Shown here: positions 24,093-33,872 of the stretch, piece after piece | Position numbering within the stretch: the stretch's first letter is position 1 | Layout of the letters: the number at the start of each line of letters is the position of its first letter | DNA from: an uncultured Rhodospirillales bacterium | GTDB lineage: Bacteria > Pseudomonadota > Alphaproteobacteria > CACIAM-22H2 | Direction: 5' to 3' | DNA: 33,967 nucleotides | NCBI GenBank assembly: GCA_903860935.1 | Contig: CAIOSQ010000253.1 | Location: 1-33,967 of the forward strand | Translations under genes and position numbers: made by a program | The notes under the pieces: generated by a model | The model's input: only the letters and a program-made list of their open reading frames with translations | The model's database searches: none | Told to the model about the DNA's origin: nothing

Positions 24093-26552
24093 TCAGATCA
24101 GGCGGCCCTGCGGCGGGGGCGGCATCTCGCCTGGTGCCATCGCCTCGTCGATCAGGGATCGCGCCGCCTCGTCGAGCAATTCGTCGATCGCGTCGCCGCG
24201 CACGGATTCTCGGCCGATCTCGAGCAGGACGGGGACCGCGAGCGGCGAGACGCGATCGAGCCGCTCGACATCGATGCGGCCCCGGATGCGGGCCAGGAAG
24301 ACACCGAGCCGCGCAACATCGGTCATCCCCGCGGCGGCATCGGCGCGCGTCGCGCGCAGCAGGACATGGTCCGGCTCGTGACGCCGCAGGACATCGTAGA
24401 TGAGATCGGCGCTGAAGGTGACCTGACGGCCGCTTTTCTCGGCGCCGGGATGGCGGCGCTGGATCAGCCCGGCGATGATCGCGACATTCCGGAAGCTGCG
24501 GCGCAGCATCGAGGATTCGGCCATCCATTCCTCGAGATCGTCGCCAAGCATGTCCTCGGCGAAGAGGTCCGCGATGCCGCGCGGCGGCCGCAGGCTCCAC
24601 ACCGCGATCACGTAGTCGGTGGCGACGAAGCCAAGCGGCCGCAGCCCCGCGCGCTCCATGCGCCGCGTCAGCAGCATGCCGAGCGTCTGATGCGCGTATC
24701 GCCCCTCGAAGCAATAGGCGACGAGGAAGAACTTTCCCCCGCGCGGAAAGATCTCGACCAGCAGACCATCGCGGCGCGGCAAGACCGAGACCGCGCGCTG
24801 CACCCGCAGCCAGTCGCGGACCGCCGCCGGCAGCGTGTCCCAACGCCCGGGATCCGCGAGCAGGGCACGCACGCGCGCGGCGAGTTCCGTCGTCAGGGGC
24901 AGGCGTCCGCCCTCGTAGACCGGCACCTTGGGCTCCCCATCGCGGACCGCGACGACGTCGACGACGGTCTCGCGCATGCCCTCGAACCGCAGCAACTGGC
25001 CGCCGAACATGAAGGTGTCGCCGATCTCGAGGCCCTGGACGAACCACTCCTCGACCTCGCCGAGCTTGCGGCGACGATTGAGCACGAGCGTGACCATCGG
25101 CGCCTCGACGATGGTGCCGACATTGAGCCGGTACTGCCGCGCGACATGGGGCCCGACGATCCGCCAGGTTCCGTCGCTGGCGCGGAACAGGCGGCGAAAG
25201 CGGTCATACCCGCGCAGGGCGTAGCCGCCGGTCGCGACGAAGGCGAGGACATCGTCGAAATCGCGCCGCTCCAGCCCCGCATAGGGCGCGGCGCCGCGAA
25301 CCTCCGCGAAAAGCGCGTCGGGATCCACCGGCCCGTGACAAGCGCAGCCCAGGACATGCTGCGCCAGAACGTCCAGCCCACCCGGACGAGTCCGCGGCGC
25401 GTCGATCTCACCCGCCCCGATGGCCTCGATCGCGGCCTCGCATTCGAGCAGTTCGAAGCGGTTGGCGGGCACCAGCAGCGCGCGGCTCGGCGCGTCGAGC
25501 CGGTGGTTGGAGCGGCCGATGCGCTGCAACAACCGCGCGGCGCCCTTCGGCGCGCCGACCTGCACGACGAGATCGACATCGCCCCAGTCGATGCCGAGAT
25601 CGAGCGACGACGTCGCCACGACCGCACGCAGGCGGCCCGCGGCCATCGCGGCCTCGACCTTGCGGCGCTGCTCGACGGCGAGGCTGCCGTGATGCAGTGC
25701 AATCGGCAGGTTGTCGTCGTTGAGCTTCCACAGGGCATGAAAACAGAGTTCGGCCTGCGCGCGCGTGTTCACGAAGACGATCGCGCTGCGCGCGCCGCGG
25801 AGCGCGCCATAGACTTCCGGCATCGTCTGCAGCGCCATGTGCCCGCCCCAGGGCAGTCGCGCCTCGGGCATCAGGATGCGGATATCGGGTCGCGCCCCGC
25901 CGCGGCCCCGAACGACCACCGGTTCCTCCGCGAGCCCGGCGCCCAGCCAGCGCGCGAGCCGGGGTGGATCGGCCACCGTCGCCGACAATCCGATCCGCAG
26001 CGTCCGCGGCGCCAGCGTCGCGAGGCGCGCGAGGCCGAGCGCGAGGAGATCGCCGCGCTTGCCGCCCTCGAGCGCGTGCAACTCGTCGACGACGATGGCA
26101 CGCAGGCCCGCGAACTGGGTCCGGGCGGCGGGATCGGCGAGCATCAGCGCCAGCGATTCCGGGGTCGTCAGCAGGATCTGTGGCGGGCTATCGCGCTGGC
26201 GCGCGCGGCGCGCCGTCGGCGTGTCGCCGGTGCGCGCCTCCGCACGCACCGGCAGTCCAAGCTCGGATACAGGGATCTCGAGATTGCGCCTGACGTCCAC
26301 GGCGAGCGCCTTGAGCGGCGAGACGTAGAGCGTATGCAGCCCCTCGGCCGGCCGCGCGGCGAGATCGATCAGGCTAGGCAGGAAGCCCGCGAGCGTCTTG
26401 CCGCCACCGGTCGGCGCGACCAGCAGGGCGGATCGCCCCGTCGCAGCCGCCGCGACGATCGCCAGCTGGTGCGCATGCGCGGTCCAACCACGCCGCGCGA
26501 ACCAATCGGCGAACAGGGGCGGCAGGGGCGCGGCGTCGGCGGTTGGCTGCAT
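24093..26552 (-). CDS. Ligase-associated DEXH box DNA helicase (Lhr-core type)
   Basis: An 819-residue superfamily 2 helicase. Visible motifs are Walker A at 46-53 (APTGGGKT), the DELH box at 156-159 (VVDELHAL), RIGLSATVADP, the second RecA domain with VATSSLDLGIDWGDVD, and the arginine finger block RLLQRIGRSNHR. After about residue 400 come the winged-helix and Lhr-core domains, including LGACACHG-like zinc-free segments, LGEVEEWFVQGLEIGDTF and LRPPRGIADLF. The length suits Lhr-core proteins, not the 1500-residue long Lhr. It probably unwinds damaged DNA with the nearby nuclease and ligase. It is divergent from the exonuclease-ligase pair, with a 90-base intergenic region between them. Confidence 0.94.
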   Translation of the reverse strand: MQPTADAAPLPPLFADWFARRGWTAHAHQLAIVAAAATGRSALLVAPTGGGKTLAGFLPSLIDLAARPAEGLHTLYVSPLKALAVDVRRNLEIPVSELGLPVRAEARTGDTPTARRARQRDSPPQILLTTPESLALMLADPAARTQFAGLRAIVVDELHALEGGKRGDLLALGLARLATLAPRTLRIGLSATVADPPRLARWLGAGLAEEPVVVRGRGGARPDIRILMPEARLPWGGHMALQTMPEVYGALRGARSAIVFVNTRAQAELCFHALWKLNDDNLPIALHHGSLAVEQRRKVEAAMAAGRLRAVVATSSLDLGIDWGDVDLVVQVGAPKGAARLLQRIGRSNHRLDAPSRALLVPANRFELLECEAAIEAIGAGEIDAPRTRPGGLDVLAQHVLGCACHGPVDPDALFAEVRGAAPYAGLERRDFDDVLAFVATGGYALRGYDRFRRLFRASDGTWRIVGPHVARQYRLNVGTIVEAPMVTLVLNRRRKLGEVEEWFVQGLEIGDTFMFGGQLLRFEGMRETVVDVVAVRDGEPKVPVYEGGRLPLTTELAARVRALLADPGRWDTLPAAVRDWLRVQRAVSVLPRRDGLLVEIFPRGGKFFLVAYCFEGRYAHQTLGMLLTRRMERAGLRPLGFVATDYVIAVWSLRPPRGIADLFAEDMLGDDLEEWMAESSMLRRSFRNVAIIAGLIQRRHPGAEKSGRQVTFSADLIYDVLRRHEPDHVLLRATRADAAAGMTDVARLGVFLARIRGRIDVERLDRVSPLAVPVLLEIGRESVRGDAIDELLDEAARSLIDEAMAPGEMPPPPQGRLI

Positions 26553-26642
26553 GGCGCGAGAATAAAGGTGCTGCTTCACATCGGGTGATCGCCCGGACTT
26601 GCAACCCGCGCGCCTCCGCTCCAAGTAGCGCGCAGTCCCGAA

Positions 26643-27662
26643 ATGACCATGCGCATGCGCCCCGAGACCTGGATCCGGCCGACGCCCCAGGGCTTGTACG
26701 TGGAGCCCGGCGATTTCTTCATAGATCCCGTGCGCCCCGCCGCGCGCGCCGTGGTCACGCATGGCCATGCAGACCACGCGCGCCCCGGAAACGAGTCGGT
26801 CCTCGCGACCGCCGGAACGCTCGCGATCATGCGCGCACGCTACGGCGCGGCGGCAGGCGGCACGCTGCAGGCGATCGGCTACGGGCAGAGCGTCCGCATC
26901 GGGGATGTGACCGTGGGTTTCGCGCCGGCTGGTCATGTGCTGGGCTCGGCGCAGATCGTCCTCGAGCATGGCGGCAGTCGCGTCGTCGTATCGGGCGACT
27001 ACAAGCGTCGCCGCGACCCGACATGTCCCCCATTCGAGCCGCAAAGCTGCGACGTCTTCGTCACCGAGGCGACCTTCGGCCTGCCCGTCTTCGTCCATCC
27101 CGTCGACGCGGACGAGATCGCGCGCCTGCTCGGGTCCGTCCATCGCAATCCCGAGCGCGCCCATCTCGTCGGCGTCTACGCCCTCGGCAAGTGCCAACGC
27201 GTCATCCGCCTGCTGCGCGAGGCCGGATGGGACGCGCCGATCTTCGTCCATGGCGCGCTCGCGGAGCTCTGCGCCGTCTACGAGCAGGCCGGGGTCGCGC
27301 TTGGCCCGCTCCGCGCGGTGGCCGGCGCGGAGCCGCGCGACCTCGCCGGCGCCATCGTCCTCGCGCCGCCCTCCGCCCTCGCCGATCGCTGGTCGCGCCG
27401 CCTTCCGGAGCCGCTTGCCGTAGCCGCCTCCGGCTGGATGCGGATCAGGCAGCGCGCGCGCCAGCGCGGCGTCGAATTGCCGCTCGTGATCTCGGACCAT
27501 GCCGACTGGCCGGAACTGCTCGGCACCTTCGCCGATGTCGATGCGCCGGAGATCTGGGTGACGCACGGCCAGGAGGACGCGCTCGTCCATGCGGCGGGCC
27601 TGCAGGGACGCCGCGCGCGCGCCCTGCGCCTGATCGGTCGCGACGAGGATGGCGGACCATGA
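26643..27662 (+). CDS. Ligase-associated DNA exonuclease (metallo-beta-lactamase/beta-CASP fold)
   Basis: A 339-residue protein of the SNM1-like metallo-beta-lactamase group. The metal motif HGHADH is at 40-45 (H40, H42, D44, H45), with further ligands in APAGHVLGSAQI and VVVSGDYKRR. The beta-CASP part contains YALGKCQRVIRLL and ends VISDHADWPELL and VWVTHGQ-like residues. The family trims DNA ends and is encoded with the ATP-dependent ligase. Three ATGs lie close together (26643, 26649, 26655); none has a strong ribosome binding site, so the start is uncertain by a few residues. The stop overlaps the ligase start (ATGA). Confidence 0.93.
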   Translation: MTMRMRPETWIRPTPQGLYVEPGDFFIDPVRPAARAVVTHGHADHARPGNESVLATAGTLAIMRARYGAAAGGTLQAIGYGQSVRIGDVTVGFAPAGHVLGSAQIVLEHGGSRVVVSGDYKRRRDPTCPPFEPQSCDVFVTEATFGLPVFVHPVDADEIARLLGSVHRNPERAHLVGVYALGKCQRVIRLLREAGWDAPIFVHGALAELCAVYEQAGVALGPLRAVAGAEPRDLAGAIVLAPPSALADRWSRRLPEPLAVAASGWMRIRQRARQRGVELPLVISDHADWPELLGTFADVDAPEIWVTHGQEDALVHAAGLQGRRARALRLIGRDEDGGP

Positions 27663-29263
27663 AGCGCTTCGCGCAGCTCCTCGATGCGCTGATCCTCGCG
27701 CCGGCGCGCGGCGCCAAGCTTCGCCTGCTCGTCGATCATTTTCGCAGCGCGCCCGATCCCGATCGCGGCTGGGCCCTCGCGGCCCTGACCGATGGCCTCG
27801 ACTTCCCCGCGGTCAAGCCCGCCGCGATCCGCGATCTCGCCGCGACGCGGATCGATCCGGTCCTGTTCGCGCTGTCCTACGATTATGTCGGCGACCTCGC
27901 GGAGACGGTGGCGCTGCTCTGGCCGCCGACCGGGATTGCCGTACACGCGCCGCTCCACGAGATCGTCGACACCCTCGCCCGGGCGCGCCGCCAGGATGCG
28001 CCCGCCCTGCTCGCGGGCTGGATGGACCGGCTCGACAGCGACGGGCGGTGGGCGCTGCTCAAGCTCGTGACCGGCGGCCTGCGGGTCGGCGTGTCCGCGC
28101 GCCTCGCGAAGACGGCGCTGGCCGAACATGGCGGCGTCGACGTGTCGGCGATCGAGGAGATCTGGCACGGGCTCGAGCCGCCTTATGCCGCGTTGTTCGG
28201 TTGGCTCGACGGCCAAGGACCGATGCCGCCCAAAACCGGCGCGCTCGGCTTCCGGCCGATGATGCTCGCCCACGCGCTGGACGATGCGGATCGCGCGGCC
28301 CTCTCGCCCCGGGACGTCGCCGTCGAGTGGAAATGGGACGGGATCCGAGTCCAGCTGGCCTGCGACGGCACCGGCGCCGTGCGTCTTCACGCTCGCGGCG
28401 GCGACGAGATCGGCGGCGCCTTTCCCGAGATCGTGACCGGTCTCGAGCATCGCGTGGTCGCCGACGGCGAGTTGCTGGTCGGCACCGGCTTTCGACCAGC
28501 GCCGTTCGCGGATCTGCAGCAGCGGCTCAATCGAAAGGCTCCGTCGCGCGCCCTGATCGCCCGTCATCCGGCCTTCCTGCGGCTCTACGACATCCTGTTC
28601 GACGGCGAGGAAGATCTCCGCGCCCTGCCCTTCGCCACCCGCCGCGCCCGCCTCGAAACCTGGTTCGCGCAGCGCGTGGCCGGGACGCCGGCCGACGGCC
28701 GGATCGACTTGTCGCCCCGGCTCGACGCCACGACCTGGGAGGACCTCGCCCGGCTGCGCGACGGCTCGGCCGCGATCGGCGCCGAGGGGCTGATGCTCAA
28801 GCGGCTCGACTCGGCTTATGTGGGCGGCAGGCCGAAGGGGTCCTGGTACAAATGGAAGCGCGATCCGATGCATGCCGATGCGGTGCTGATGTACGCGCAG
28901 CGCGGCCACGGCAAGCGGTCGTCCTTCTATTCCGACTTCACCTTCGGATGCTGGCGCGAGGACGGCGAGCTTGTTCCCGTCGGCAAGGCCTATTTCGGGT
29001 TCACCGATGCCGAACTGGCACGCCTCGACCGCTGGGTCCGCGCCAACGCCGTCGACCGTTTCGGTCCGGTGCTGGTGGTCGCGCGCGAACTGGTGTGCGA
29101 ACTCGCTTTCGACGGCGTGCAGCGGTCGAGCCGGCATAAATCCGGCCTGGCGCTGCGCTTCCCCCGCATCGCGCGGATCCGCTGGGACAAGCCGGCGGCG
29201 GAAGCCGACCGGATCGATGCGCTTGAAGGGCTCGTGGGACGGGATCGCGCGGATCCTCGCTAA
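27659..29263 (+). CDS. ATP-dependent DNA ligase (cisplatin-resistance/LigC-like group)
   Basis: A 534-residue ligase that seals nicks using ATP. The N-terminal helical DNA-binding domain covers about 1-190. The nucleotidyltransferase motif I is EWKWDGIRVQ, with the AMP-accepting lysine at K225. Later motifs are VADGELL (III), GAEGLMLKRLDSAYVGG (IV) and SWYKWKRDP (V). An OB-fold with FTFGCWREDGELVPVGKAY follows. There is no polymerase or phosphoesterase domain, so it is not LigD. It is translationally coupled to the exonuclease and completes the helicase-PdeM-exonuclease-ligase set. The TAA stop is part of a CtrA-like box before the next gene. Confidence 0.95.
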   Translation: MKRFAQLLDALILAPARGAKLRLLVDHFRSAPDPDRGWALAALTDGLDFPAVKPAAIRDLAATRIDPVLFALSYDYVGDLAETVALLWPPTGIAVHAPLHEIVDTLARARRQDAPALLAGWMDRLDSDGRWALLKLVTGGLRVGVSARLAKTALAEHGGVDVSAIEEIWHGLEPPYAALFGWLDGQGPMPPKTGALGFRPMMLAHALDDADRAALSPRDVAVEWKWDGIRVQLACDGTGAVRLHARGGDEIGGAFPEIVTGLEHRVVADGELLVGTGFRPAPFADLQQRLNRKAPSRALIARHPAFLRLYDILFDGEEDLRALPFATRRARLETWFAQRVAGTPADGRIDLSPRLDATTWEDLARLRDGSAAIGAEGLMLKRLDSAYVGGRPKGSWYKWKRDPMHADAVLMYAQRGHGKRSSFYSDFTFGCWREDGELVPVGKAYFGFTDAELARLDRWVRANAVDRFGPVLVVARELVCELAFDGVQRSSRHKSGLALRFPRIARIRWDKPAAEADRIDALEGLVGRDRADPR

Positions 29264-29274
29264 CCCTCGCTTAA
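29260..29274. promoter_or_regulatory. CtrA-like binding box before the hybrid pseudokinase
   Basis: CTAA (29260-29263), seven bases, TTAA (29271-29274) matches seven of eight defined positions of the full CtrA site TTAA-N7-TTAA. It lies 47 bases upstream of the kinase ATG, and AT-rich words like this are rare in this GC-rich DNA. It includes the ligase stop codon. Whether CtrA binds it is an inference. Confidence 0.4.
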
Positions 29275-29320
29275 CCCGGAGCGCCTAGCCTGCCGATCTC
29301 CTTCATTTGATGGCGCGTGC

Positions 29321-31297
29321 ATGACCGAGCGACAGCAGGACTGGCTGGCCAATCTCGGGCAAGAGATCCGCACGCCGATGAGCGGCATCATCGGCATGGC
29401 GAGGCTCTTGCTCGAAACGCCGCTGCGCTCCGATCAGCGCCAATGCGCGGAATCCATTCACGAGAGCGCGGGCCGTCTGCTCGCCATGGTCGAATCGCTG
29501 CTGGGGGACGCGCGCCAGGACATCGGGCCGCCGCGGCCGGAGACCGGCGATTTCGACCTCCCGGCCCTGATCGAAGGCTCCGCCGAACTCCTGGCGCCGC
29601 AGGCGGAGCGCAAAGGCCTCGCCCTCGGCGTCTATATCCACCCAGCCGCGATCCTGAGGCTTCACGGCGATGCCGGCCGGTTGCGCCAGGTGCTGGTGAA
29701 CATCGTCGCGAACGCGATCAGGTTCACCGCGCGCGGATCGGTCGAGATCGACGTGCGCGTCCATCCGCTCGACGCCGACACCGTCAAGCTGCGGGTCGCT
29801 GTCGCCGATTCCGGAATCGGCATCGCCCCCGATGTCCAGGCGCGGATCTTCGAACGATTTGCCCAGGCGGATGCCGCGACCGGCACCAGCGCGAGCGGCC
29901 TCGGGCTTGCGCTCTGCCGCCAGATGGTCGAGGCGATGGGCGGCGACATCGGCGTCGAGAGCGAACCGGGCCGCGGCGCGACGTTCTGGTTCGCGGTCCC
30001 CATGAAGCTGGCGGACGGCAATGTCGGGCTCGACCTCAAGGCCTTCGAACCGCTCAGCGGCCTGCGCGCGCTCGTCGTCGATTCGTACGAGAGCGATCGC
30101 CGGGTCCTGCGGCGCCGACTCCAGGCACTGGGCCTCGAGGTCGTCGAAGCGCCAGACCCGCGCGGTGCGATCGACGCTCTGGACGCGATCGCCGCGCAGG
30201 ACAATCGTTTCGATCTGATCCTTCTCGAGCAGGCCGGCTTCACAGGCCCCTTGCGCGCGGTGGTCGAGCGGATCGCGCGCGACGACGCCGCAAGACCGCC
30301 GCGTATCGTCCTCTGCACCCCCTTCGGCACCGCAGCGACCAGCTTGACCCATGACGCCCTGCGCACGCCGGACGCGTTGATCACGAAGCCGTTCCGCGTC
30401 GCCGCGATCGCCCAGACACTGCTCGGCCTGTTTGCCAGAGACGCGGCGGCTAGCACCGCCGACGCGGCCAGCGCCGGCGGGACATTCGTCGGTCAGGCGC
30501 CGCAGCAGGGTGCGGCGCGCATCCTGGTCGCCGACGACAACCGTGTGAACCTGCGGCTGATGGCCGCGATCCTCGAGCGCGAGGGCTTCGGCGTCGACAT
30601 CGCGGAGGACGGTTTGCAGGCGGTAGAACTCGCGGCGCGGCGCGGCTACGCCGCGATCCTCATGGACGTGAAGATGCCGCGCATGAACGGCCTCGAGGCT
30701 GCGGCGCGGATCCGCGCCCTCGATGGCGCGATCGCGCGGGTTCCGATCGTGGCCTTGACCGCCAACACGACGCCGCGGGCACGGGAGCTTTACCTGGCGG
30801 CGGGTATGGACGAACATGTGCCGAAACCGGTGAACCGGACCGAACTCATGGCAGTCCTGAGGCGCCTCGTCGCGCGCCCGTCGACGTCTTTTCTGGCGCC
30901 GACGCCGCGCCACGCCTTGCCGCTGCCCGCGGCGATCTTGACGGACCACCCGGACCTCGACGAGCAGCAACTCTCCGCCGTGCAGTCGGTCTTGCGCAAA
31001 GCCGAGTTCGAACGCCTCATCGCCGCCTATGCGGAAGGCGCCCAGGAGCGCGCCGACGGGCTGCGGGCCGTGGCCGCGATCGGCGACCTCGCCGCGATGA
31101 ACCGCGCGGCCCAGGACATCGGATCGATCGCCGCCAATGTCGGCGCGAGGCGACTGAAGGATCTCGCCGCCGCGCTCGAGACCGCCTGTCGCGAGCGCCG
31201 CCCCGAAGATGCCGACCGGATCACTGCCGATGTCGCGGCGGTCGCGACGCATACCGCCAACGAATTGCGGCGCCGCTTCCTGCGCCGCGCCGGCTGA
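29321..31297 (+). CDS. Soluble hybrid histidine kinase homologue with both phospho-histidines replaced by glutamine
   Basis: A 658-residue multidomain protein with no signal, membrane span or PAS domain: it begins inside the HisKA helix. Domains: HisKA about 1-65, HATPase 75-232, first receiver 248-365, second receiver 400-523, HPt-like 560-658. The HisKA box reads LGQEIRTPMSG, so Q14 (codon CAA) replaces histidine. The ATPase boxes look intact (NIVANAIRFT, ADSGIGIA, ASGLGLAL). Receiver 1 has E303 for the phospho-aspartate (LILLEQ) and a weakened acid pair. Receiver 2 is complete (VADDN, D449 in MDVKMP, VPKPV). The HPt box reads AAQDIGSIAANVGA, with Q598 (CAG) for histidine. I infer a pseudokinase or scaffold, comparable in idea to DivL. 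Its partners are unknown. Confidence 0.9.
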   Translation: MTERQQDWLANLGQEIRTPMSGIIGMARLLLETPLRSDQRQCAESIHESAGRLLAMVESLLGDARQDIGPPRPETGDFDLPALIEGSAELLAPQAERKGLALGVYIHPAAILRLHGDAGRLRQVLVNIVANAIRFTARGSVEIDVRVHPLDADTVKLRVAVADSGIGIAPDVQARIFERFAQADAATGTSASGLGLALCRQMVEAMGGDIGVESEPGRGATFWFAVPMKLADGNVGLDLKAFEPLSGLRALVVDSYESDRRVLRRRLQALGLEVVEAPDPRGAIDALDAIAAQDNRFDLILLEQAGFTGPLRAVVERIARDDAARPPRIVLCTPFGTAATSLTHDALRTPDALITKPFRVAAIAQTLLGLFARDAAASTADAASAGGTFVGQAPQQGAARILVADDNRVNLRLMAAILEREGFGVDIAEDGLQAVELAARRGYAAILMDVKMPRMNGLEAAARIRALDGAIARVPIVALTANTTPRARELYLAAGMDEHVPKPVNRTELMAVLRRLVARPSTSFLAPTPRHALPLPAAILTDHPDLDEQQLSAVQSVLRKAEFERLIAAYAEGAQERADGLRAVAAIGDLAAMNRAAQDIGSIAANVGARRLKDLAAALETACRERRPEDADRITADVAAVATHTANELRRRFLRRAG

Positions 31298-32662: not shown

Positions 32663-33670
32663 TCACTTGATCCGCAGCATCCGGTCGACGATCCGTCCGA
32701 CGCCGGTGCGGGACGGATCGACGCAGGGAAGCCCGACCTTGTCCTCGATCCGCTTCATCGCCGTGGCGGCGGCGCGCGCTGTCATCTTCGACGTGTTCAG
32801 CGACACGCCGATGCATTTCGCCTTCGGATTGGTCAGCCGCGCATGGAGCACGTTGAGGTCGATGGCCTCTCGCAGGTCCGGCAGCTTGTAGCCGGGAAGT
32901 CCGCGCATATGGGGACGGCCGGTCTCGTGGCACATGACCAGTGCGTCGGCCTGGGCGCCATGGATCAGCGCCAGGGTCACGCCCGCGTAGGAGGCGTGAT
33001 GCAACGAGCCCTGCCCCTCGATCAGGTCCCAATGGTCCGGCGCGTTGTCGGGCGACATCGTCTCGACGCAGCCGGCGACGAAATCGGAGACGACGGCGTC
33101 GATCGACACGCCACCGCCGGCGACGAGGATCCCGGTCTGCCCGGTCGCCCTGAACGAGGCCTTGAGCCCGCGCGCGTGCATCTCCTTCTCGAGCGCGAGG
33201 GTCGTATACATCTTGCCGATCGAGCAATCGGTGCCGACGGTCAGCAACCGCTTGCCGCTGCGCCTCTTGCCGGTCGCGATCGGAAATTGCTCGGTCGGAT
33301 GGCGGACGTCGAACAGCTTCCGGCGCAGCTTCTTAGCTTTGGCGGCGATCTCCGGGATGTCGACCAGGCGCTGGTGGAGGCCGGCGGCGAGATCGAGCCC
33401 GGCCTCGAGCGCGTCGTTCATCGCCTGCATCCAGGCCGGCGAGAAGACGCCGCCGCGGTTCACCGCGCCGACGATCATCGTCTTCGCGCCCTTGGCCGCG
33501 GCCTCGCGCGCCGTCATGTCGGGCACCAGGGCGTCGGCCTTGCAGCCAGGCAACCGCACCTGCCCGACACAGGCCTCGGGACGCCATTGCGCCACGCCGA
33601 TCGACGTCTTGGCCGCCAGCGGATCCGCCGCGTCGGCGAGGAAAAGAAGATAGGGCTGCTTGATCTCCAC
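32663..33670 (-). CDS. dgcN: D-glutamate N-acetyltransferase DgcN (DUF1611 family)
   Basis: A 335-residue DUF1611 protein. GTG 33670 is chosen because GGGGAA lies seven bases upstream and because MEIKQPYLLFL is the usual family opening. A P-loop-like segment, VGTDCSIGKMYTTLALEKEM, begins at residue 145. Later blocks are RATGQTGILVAGGGV, DLIEGQGSLHHASYAGVTL and CHETGRPHMRGLPGY. Family members acetylate D-glutamate from acetyl-CoA, the first step in using this peptidoglycan-derived amino acid. It is cotranscribed with dgcA. The 200 bases upstream, to the tRNA gene, show no convincing promoter. Confidence 0.9.
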   Translation of the reverse strand: MEIKQPYLLFLADAADPLAAKTSIGVAQWRPEACVGQVRLPGCKADALVPDMTAREAAAKGAKTMIVGAVNRGGVFSPAWMQAMNDALEAGLDLAAGLHQRLVDIPEIAAKAKKLRRKLFDVRHPTEQFPIATGKRRSGKRLLTVGTDCSIGKMYTTLALEKEMHARGLKASFRATGQTGILVAGGGVSIDAVVSDFVAGCVETMSPDNAPDHWDLIEGQGSLHHASYAGVTLALIHGAQADALVMCHETGRPHMRGLPGYKLPDLREAIDLNVLHARLTNPKAKCIGVSLNTSKMTARAAATAMKRIEDKVGLPCVDPSRTGVGRIVDRMLRIK

Positions 33671-33872
33671 GGCTCGGTTCCCCCAAGGCTGCAACGCGCC
33701 GAGTGTGGCGGAATTGCCGCGGGTTACACAAGCAGGCTGGCACACGCAGCGCGAGCGGCCGCGGGGCATGCGACGCGCGCTTGCCGGATATGACCCGTCA
33801 CACACCGATCCTCAACCCGGCCCCGGGAGCGATCGGTCATGTGCGGCAACGCAAAGGCGGACGGGAAGAAAA

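Follow-up and report, generated by a model that had tools for sequence, protein, structure and literature searches.

A degenerate hybrid histidine kinase with one intact receiver domain in an uncultured Rhodospirillales bacterium

When a phosphorelay protein is found with most of its phosphorylated residues replaced, is its gene decaying or has it been repurposed? The question is raised by a gene at 29321..31297 (forward strand, as are all features below unless stated) of the 33,967-nucleotide stretch of DNA analysed here, hereafter the window, which comes from a 4.6 Mb draft genome (G000) of an uncultured Rhodospirillales bacterium. Its open reading frame, Pfam matches (HisKA 4e-15, HATPase_c 1.3e-29, Response_reg over two stretches, Hpt 1.1e-6) and synteny with canonical orthologues in three other species of the genus (G001, G002 and G003) identify it as a degenerate hybrid histidine kinase of 658 amino acids with the domain order DHp-CA-REC1-REC2-HPt.

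A first-pass annotation had reported glutamine at both phospho-histidine sites, a first receiver without its aspartate, an intact second receiver and no sensor domain, and these observations hold. The DHp (HisKA) domain (29321..29521) carries Q14 (codon CAA, 29360-29362) and the HPt domain (30953..31294) carries Q598 (codon CAG, 31112-31114), in aligned columns that are otherwise His and that orthologues encode by CAC. REC1 (30038..30436) is a pseudo-receiver with E303 at its acceptor site (GAG, 30227-30229; GAC for Asp in the congeneric orthologues), its second acidic residue lost and K356 kept. The full catalytic set is present in REC2 (30506..30880; D405, D406, D449, T480 and K502), of which D449 (GAC, 30665-30667) is the sole remaining phospho-acceptor of the protein. 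The stop codon of the upstream ligase gene and the start codon are 57 bp apart. A mis-set H-box was considered and ruled out, as by alignment, Pfam and AlphaFold alike Q14 falls in helix 1 and Q598 within the HPt helix. In the transmitter-phosphatase motif His-Glu-x-x-Thr, E15 and T18 are kept and Gln replaces His, so that the full motif is absent. Compared with an active hybrid kinase of the BarA/ArcB-like type (HK-REC-REC-HPt), the protein lacks the H-box histidine, an intact set of N, G1, F and G2 boxes and the HPt histidine; it shares the domain order of that type and, as its syntenic orthologues with the full architecture indicate, common descent with it. Judged from these residues, the window protein is probably incapable of classical autophosphorylation or relay.

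An alignment of 39 homologues (37 with a DHp domain, 34 with an HPt domain) puts these substitutions in context. Histidine occupies the column equivalent to Q14 in 37/37 and that equivalent to Q598 in 34/34, and column 449 is Asp in 38/38; the REC1 aspartate is present in 26 of 36, its loss being common in this family. In a codon-level search of 385 genomes of the class, QEIRTPM was found in a single genome, at the window locus only, while HEIRTPM occurred at 110 sites in 61 genomes. The loss of both histidines to the same residue had been taken as a sign of selection, for which it is weak evidence. Each acceptor loss is a single third-position transversion (CAC>CAA, GAC>GAG and CAC>CAG), two of the nine one-step changes from CAC lead to Gln, and the window protein also differs at 11 of the 28 DHp columns that are otherwise conserved. 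The double glutamine, lying one third-base change from CAC and accompanied by many other DHp changes, is therefore by itself no argument for selection. Around the HPt site, too, the conserved HDLKG has become QDIGS. An assembly artefact is unlikely, since the flanking genes on either side keep the synteny of the genus and the differences extend to several linked codons.

The gene is found at the same place in all three congeners. Upstream of it lie a metallo-beta-lactamase-fold protein and an ATP-dependent DNA ligase in G003 and G001 (the ligase only on the G002 contig), and downstream an enolase-superfamily epimerase, named from its sequence rather than from a Pfam scan, and then a DUF1611 protein, with gene order the same on the congeners' contigs where these were found. 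The window genes at 24096-29263 (an Lhr-type helicase on the reverse strand, a metallo-beta-lactamase-fold exonuclease-like protein and the adjoining ATP-dependent DNA ligase) form a genus-conserved DNA repair cluster resembling Lhr-Core/MPE/ligase, and the DUF1611 gene (32666-33805, reverse strand) adjoins that of the enolase-superfamily dipeptide epimerase, an arrangement also conserved in the genus. The congeneric orthologues are PAS-HisKA-HATPase-REC-REC-HPt hybrid kinases carrying SHEIRTPM and AHDLKGVAGNFG, that is, histidine at both sites, together with the REC1 aspartate. Q14 and Q598 are thus not conserved in the orthologues, with His at both sites in 3/3. A search of G000 for a second, intact copy of the kinase yielded none, the next best match having 36% identity, and a contig scan with the window protein for a closer strain returned only distant hybrid kinases and unrelated receiver matches.

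The sensor region differs among these orthologues. In G003 it comprises two PAS domains and an N-terminal hydrophobic segment; in G002 there is one PAS domain without such a segment, and the G001 copy, which is incomplete, begins likewise, giving a series from segment plus two PAS domains, to one, to none (L121, 4093-7206; L122, 4563-7112; window, 29321-31297). Across the genus, then, the sensor has shrunk, and only the window lineage has lost the phospho-sites. The REC1 domains of the otherwise canonical G002 and G001 orthologues (L009 and L012) keep Asp but have lost the usual MPG motif (VDEQVAARP), so that REC1 decay probably predates the split of the window lineage or ran in parallel.

The ATP-binding boxes, described at first pass as intact, are so in part. 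Within the CA (HATPase_c) domain (29636..30016) the N, G1 and F boxes are preserved, whereas the lid/G2 box (29864..29911) is eroded in the alignment, RRYGGTGLGL of relatives reading TS--ASGLGL, so that R, G, G and T (including the lid Arg and the Gly pair) are changed and two residues deleted; AlphaFold confidence is low at residues 182-191, with pLDDT below 50 in the lid loop. In AlphaFold2 modelling on 29 sequences (mean pLDDT 82.5) the DHp helices, the CA domain, both receivers and a four-helix HPt bundle (pLDDT about 92) are retained and the lid is disordered, and the encoded soluble protein is predicted still to fold as DHp-CA-REC1-REC2-HPt. Among solved structures ShkA comes closest, matching over DHp-CA-REC1-REC2; GacS and RetS follow, and DivL ranks lower.

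Whether the gene is decaying was approached domain by domain. A Tajima relative-rate test, with G003 as outgroup, compared the window lineage with its sister G002 and gave amino-acid changes (window lineage first) of 22:2 in DHp, 34:8 in CA, 30:10 in REC1, 25:12 in HPt and 16:18 in REC2; four neighbour genes are clock-like in the same test. With the more distant outgroups G004 and G036, respectively, the REC2 of the window lineage somewhat outpaces that of the slow G003 lineage (22:6 and 14:6) and does not differ significantly from that of the sister species (18:10 and 13:10); HPt is hardly accelerated with other outgroups (15:11 and 15:9). Free-branch omega was uninformative, with dS saturated and the branch length at its bound. 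It was replaced by a fit with branch lengths fixed from the four neighbour genes (1,559 codons), giving omega values on the window branch that, dS being near saturation, rest on these borrowed lengths: 0.25 for DHp, 0.15 for CA, 0.28 for REC1, 0.08 for REC2 and 0.18 for HPt. These exceed the other branches in every domain except REC2, DHp rising to 0.25 from 0.05 elsewhere and CA tripling. Omega = 1 is rejected in each domain (2dlnL 54-238) and over the whole gene (629). The neutral fraction is at most about 0.04 in REC2 compared with 0.15-0.30 in DHp, and helix alpha1 of REC2, where partners usually dock, is identical at 12/16 positions to either relative, the relatives matching each other at 9/16. 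The kinase half and REC1 are thus relaxed, REC2 is the least relaxed and HPt is intermediate, the guarding of REC2 being a matter of degree.

These rates bear directly on the possibility that the gene is an early pseudogene, whose sensor was deleted, which has since decayed without function and whose REC2 looks normal by luck. That a single lineage has lost the sensor, the lid and three phospho-sites while orthologues remain intact is what such decay could produce; moreover the ATG is the only near start codon and a clear Shine-Dalgarno sequence is absent, an open frame says little at such high G+C (the antisense strand has an ORF of 649 aa), and saturation limits the selection test. However, the frame is open over 658 codons with gene-like G+C by codon position (0.74/0.50/0.86), neutral evolution is rejected in every domain, and a model that lets the entire gene turn neutral at a single time, with a uniform neutral fraction for all domains, is rejected as well (2dlnL 23.6, 4 df). 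A promoter-like element is also kept. We therefore consider an early pseudogene unlikely. It had been proposed that close relatives with histidine at both sites would reduce the case to a loss in one strain; such relatives exist, but this is not simple decay, since the frame is kept, omega is far below 1 and the loss of constraint differs among the domains. The related suggestion of a non-phosphorylating regulator kept by selection is supported in so far as purifying selection persists, although the best-guarded part is REC2 and not the kinase core.

The promoter-like element consists of a CtrA-like box, CTAA-N7-TTAAC (29260..29275), which resembles the CtrA consensus, overlaps the ligase stop codon and has a counterpart at this position in each of G001, G002 and G003, followed about 9 bases later by a conserved CCTAG (29284..29288), possibly a -10-like element. 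Both are kept in the four species, with TCAA for CTAA in G003, and YYAA-N7-TTAA occurs only once in the window when both strands are scanned. The box at 29260-29275 is a candidate site for CtrA binding.

As REC2 is the only possible phosphate carrier in the protein, the simplest function that could have been retained is the acceptance of a phosphoryl group in trans. We tentatively favour, short of confidence, a RetS-like pseudokinase, in which REC2 would take phosphoryl groups from another kinase and the protein would have no histidine of its own for onward transfer. By comparison with the orthologues, the ancestor was an ordinary PAS sensor hybrid kinase with a His-Asp-Asp-His relay, and the window lineage has since shed its sensor region and its ATP lid/G2 box together with three of four phospho-acceptors, leaving the REC2 site alone functional-looking. 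The old dimerisation core may bind other hybrid kinases of the cell, as RetS of Pseudomonas does, and REC2 may accept phosphoryl groups from a histidine of these partners or from a histidine phosphotransfer protein. Candidates in the genome are about ten other hybrid-type HisKA kinases, a DivL-type protein and a ChpT homologue. Because the pseudo-HPt leaves no onward route within the protein, such a receiver would be a dead-end sink: with Gln in its own HPt the phosphoryl group would be stuck and lost by hydrolysis, and the partner pathway would be dampened. Alternatively, phosphorylated REC2 may change its contacts in the manner of a response regulator. The stronger proposal, that a whole phosphorelay protein has become a dedicated sink, its kinase, REC1 and HPt made pseudo-domains by single third-base changes while REC2, under full selection, drains the pathway of another kinase, is possible but doubtful. 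A function centred on REC2 is better supported than either the sink mechanism or the partner.

RetS of Pseudomonas aeruginosa (PMC5992135; PDB 6dk7, 6dk8, 7n0e) is a degenerate kinase that does not autophosphorylate and whose REC2 aspartate receives phosphoryl groups from GacS (PMC5992135). It shares with the window protein a DHp-CA-REC1-REC2 core, a degenerate ATP site (in the window protein, by sequence) and the retained REC2 aspartate, but it keeps the DHp histidine and REC1 aspartate, lacks an HPt and has a known partner in GacS, whereas the window protein has neither histidine and no sensor. Since RetS keeps its DHp histidine and the window DHp is the fastest-decaying domain, the case for a conserved DHp interface is weakened. 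The best match in both sequence and fold, over residues 7-515, is ShkA of Caulobacter crescentus (PDB 6qrj), whose REC1 is also a pseudo-receiver (PMC12632262); ShkA, however, has kinase activity and lacks an HPt.

The same weakness affects an allosteric reading, in which the dead DHp-CA would bind a phosphorylated response regulator, or heterodimerise with a kinase and control it, with phosphorylation of REC2 secondary. DivL (PMC4211667; PDB 4q20) is a precedent in the alphaproteobacteria, a pseudokinase with its DHp His replaced and poor ATP binding, and a DivL-type protein with Tyr for His (SYELRTPL; L134, G000:C48:10190-10393) is encoded in the same genome. E15 and T18 of the phosphatase motif are kept in the window protein, and a pseudokinase mutant of ChrS boosts signalling via its paralogue HrrS (PMC9491836), native ChrS and HrrS being known to heterodimerise and an interaction of HrrS with the mutant not having been observed (PMC9491836). 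Yet a docking surface should be guarded; the DHp interface of DivL is conserved, whereas the window DHp changes fastest and is altered at 11 of 28 conserved positions, and we regard such an allosteric role as improbable. The identification of the window protein as DivL itself was rejected: it has Gln, not Tyr, and REC1, REC2 and HPt domains where DivL has no REC2 or HPt, and it is not the DivL orthologue of this genome, the separate DivL-type protein sitting elsewhere, on contig C48.

AHP6, a plant pseudo-HPt protein, has Asn for His and inhibits the cytokinin relay. By analogy, the Gln-bearing pseudo-HPt of the window protein might dock onto receivers of other relays and block them. Plant pseudo-HPt proteins have been described in the literature, a well-folded four-helix bundle is predicted here and the acceleration of HPt is small, but the change from HDLKG to QDIGS alters the receiver-docking face as well as the phospho-site, making competition of this kind decidedly unlikely. 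AHP6 and Asp-to-Glu pseudo-receivers are similar to the window protein in having lost the phospho-residue while keeping the fold, Glu being the commonest replacement at the Asp site of pseudo-receivers (PMC12632262), but are single-domain proteins or occur in other contexts, whereas here several pseudo-domains are joined to one live receiver. The ATP-driven switch without phosphotransfer that had also been suggested is the least likely of these readings and very improbable, because despite the kept N, G1 and F boxes, and the ATP binding and hydrolysis known in some kinases without an H-box (PMC11784639), the G2 box and lid are eroded and both DHp and CA, with its tripled omega, are among the relaxed domains.

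The locus represents a pseudo-hybrid kinase variant so far limited to one species. Pseudokinases like DivL and RetS are few in bacteria and old in origin. Here the active form is present at the same locus in sister species and the sensor shrinks stepwise through the genus, which makes the passage from relay kinase to non-kinase regulator traceable and testable, and the domain-by-domain rate test offers a cheap way to separate a decaying kinase from a repurposed one.
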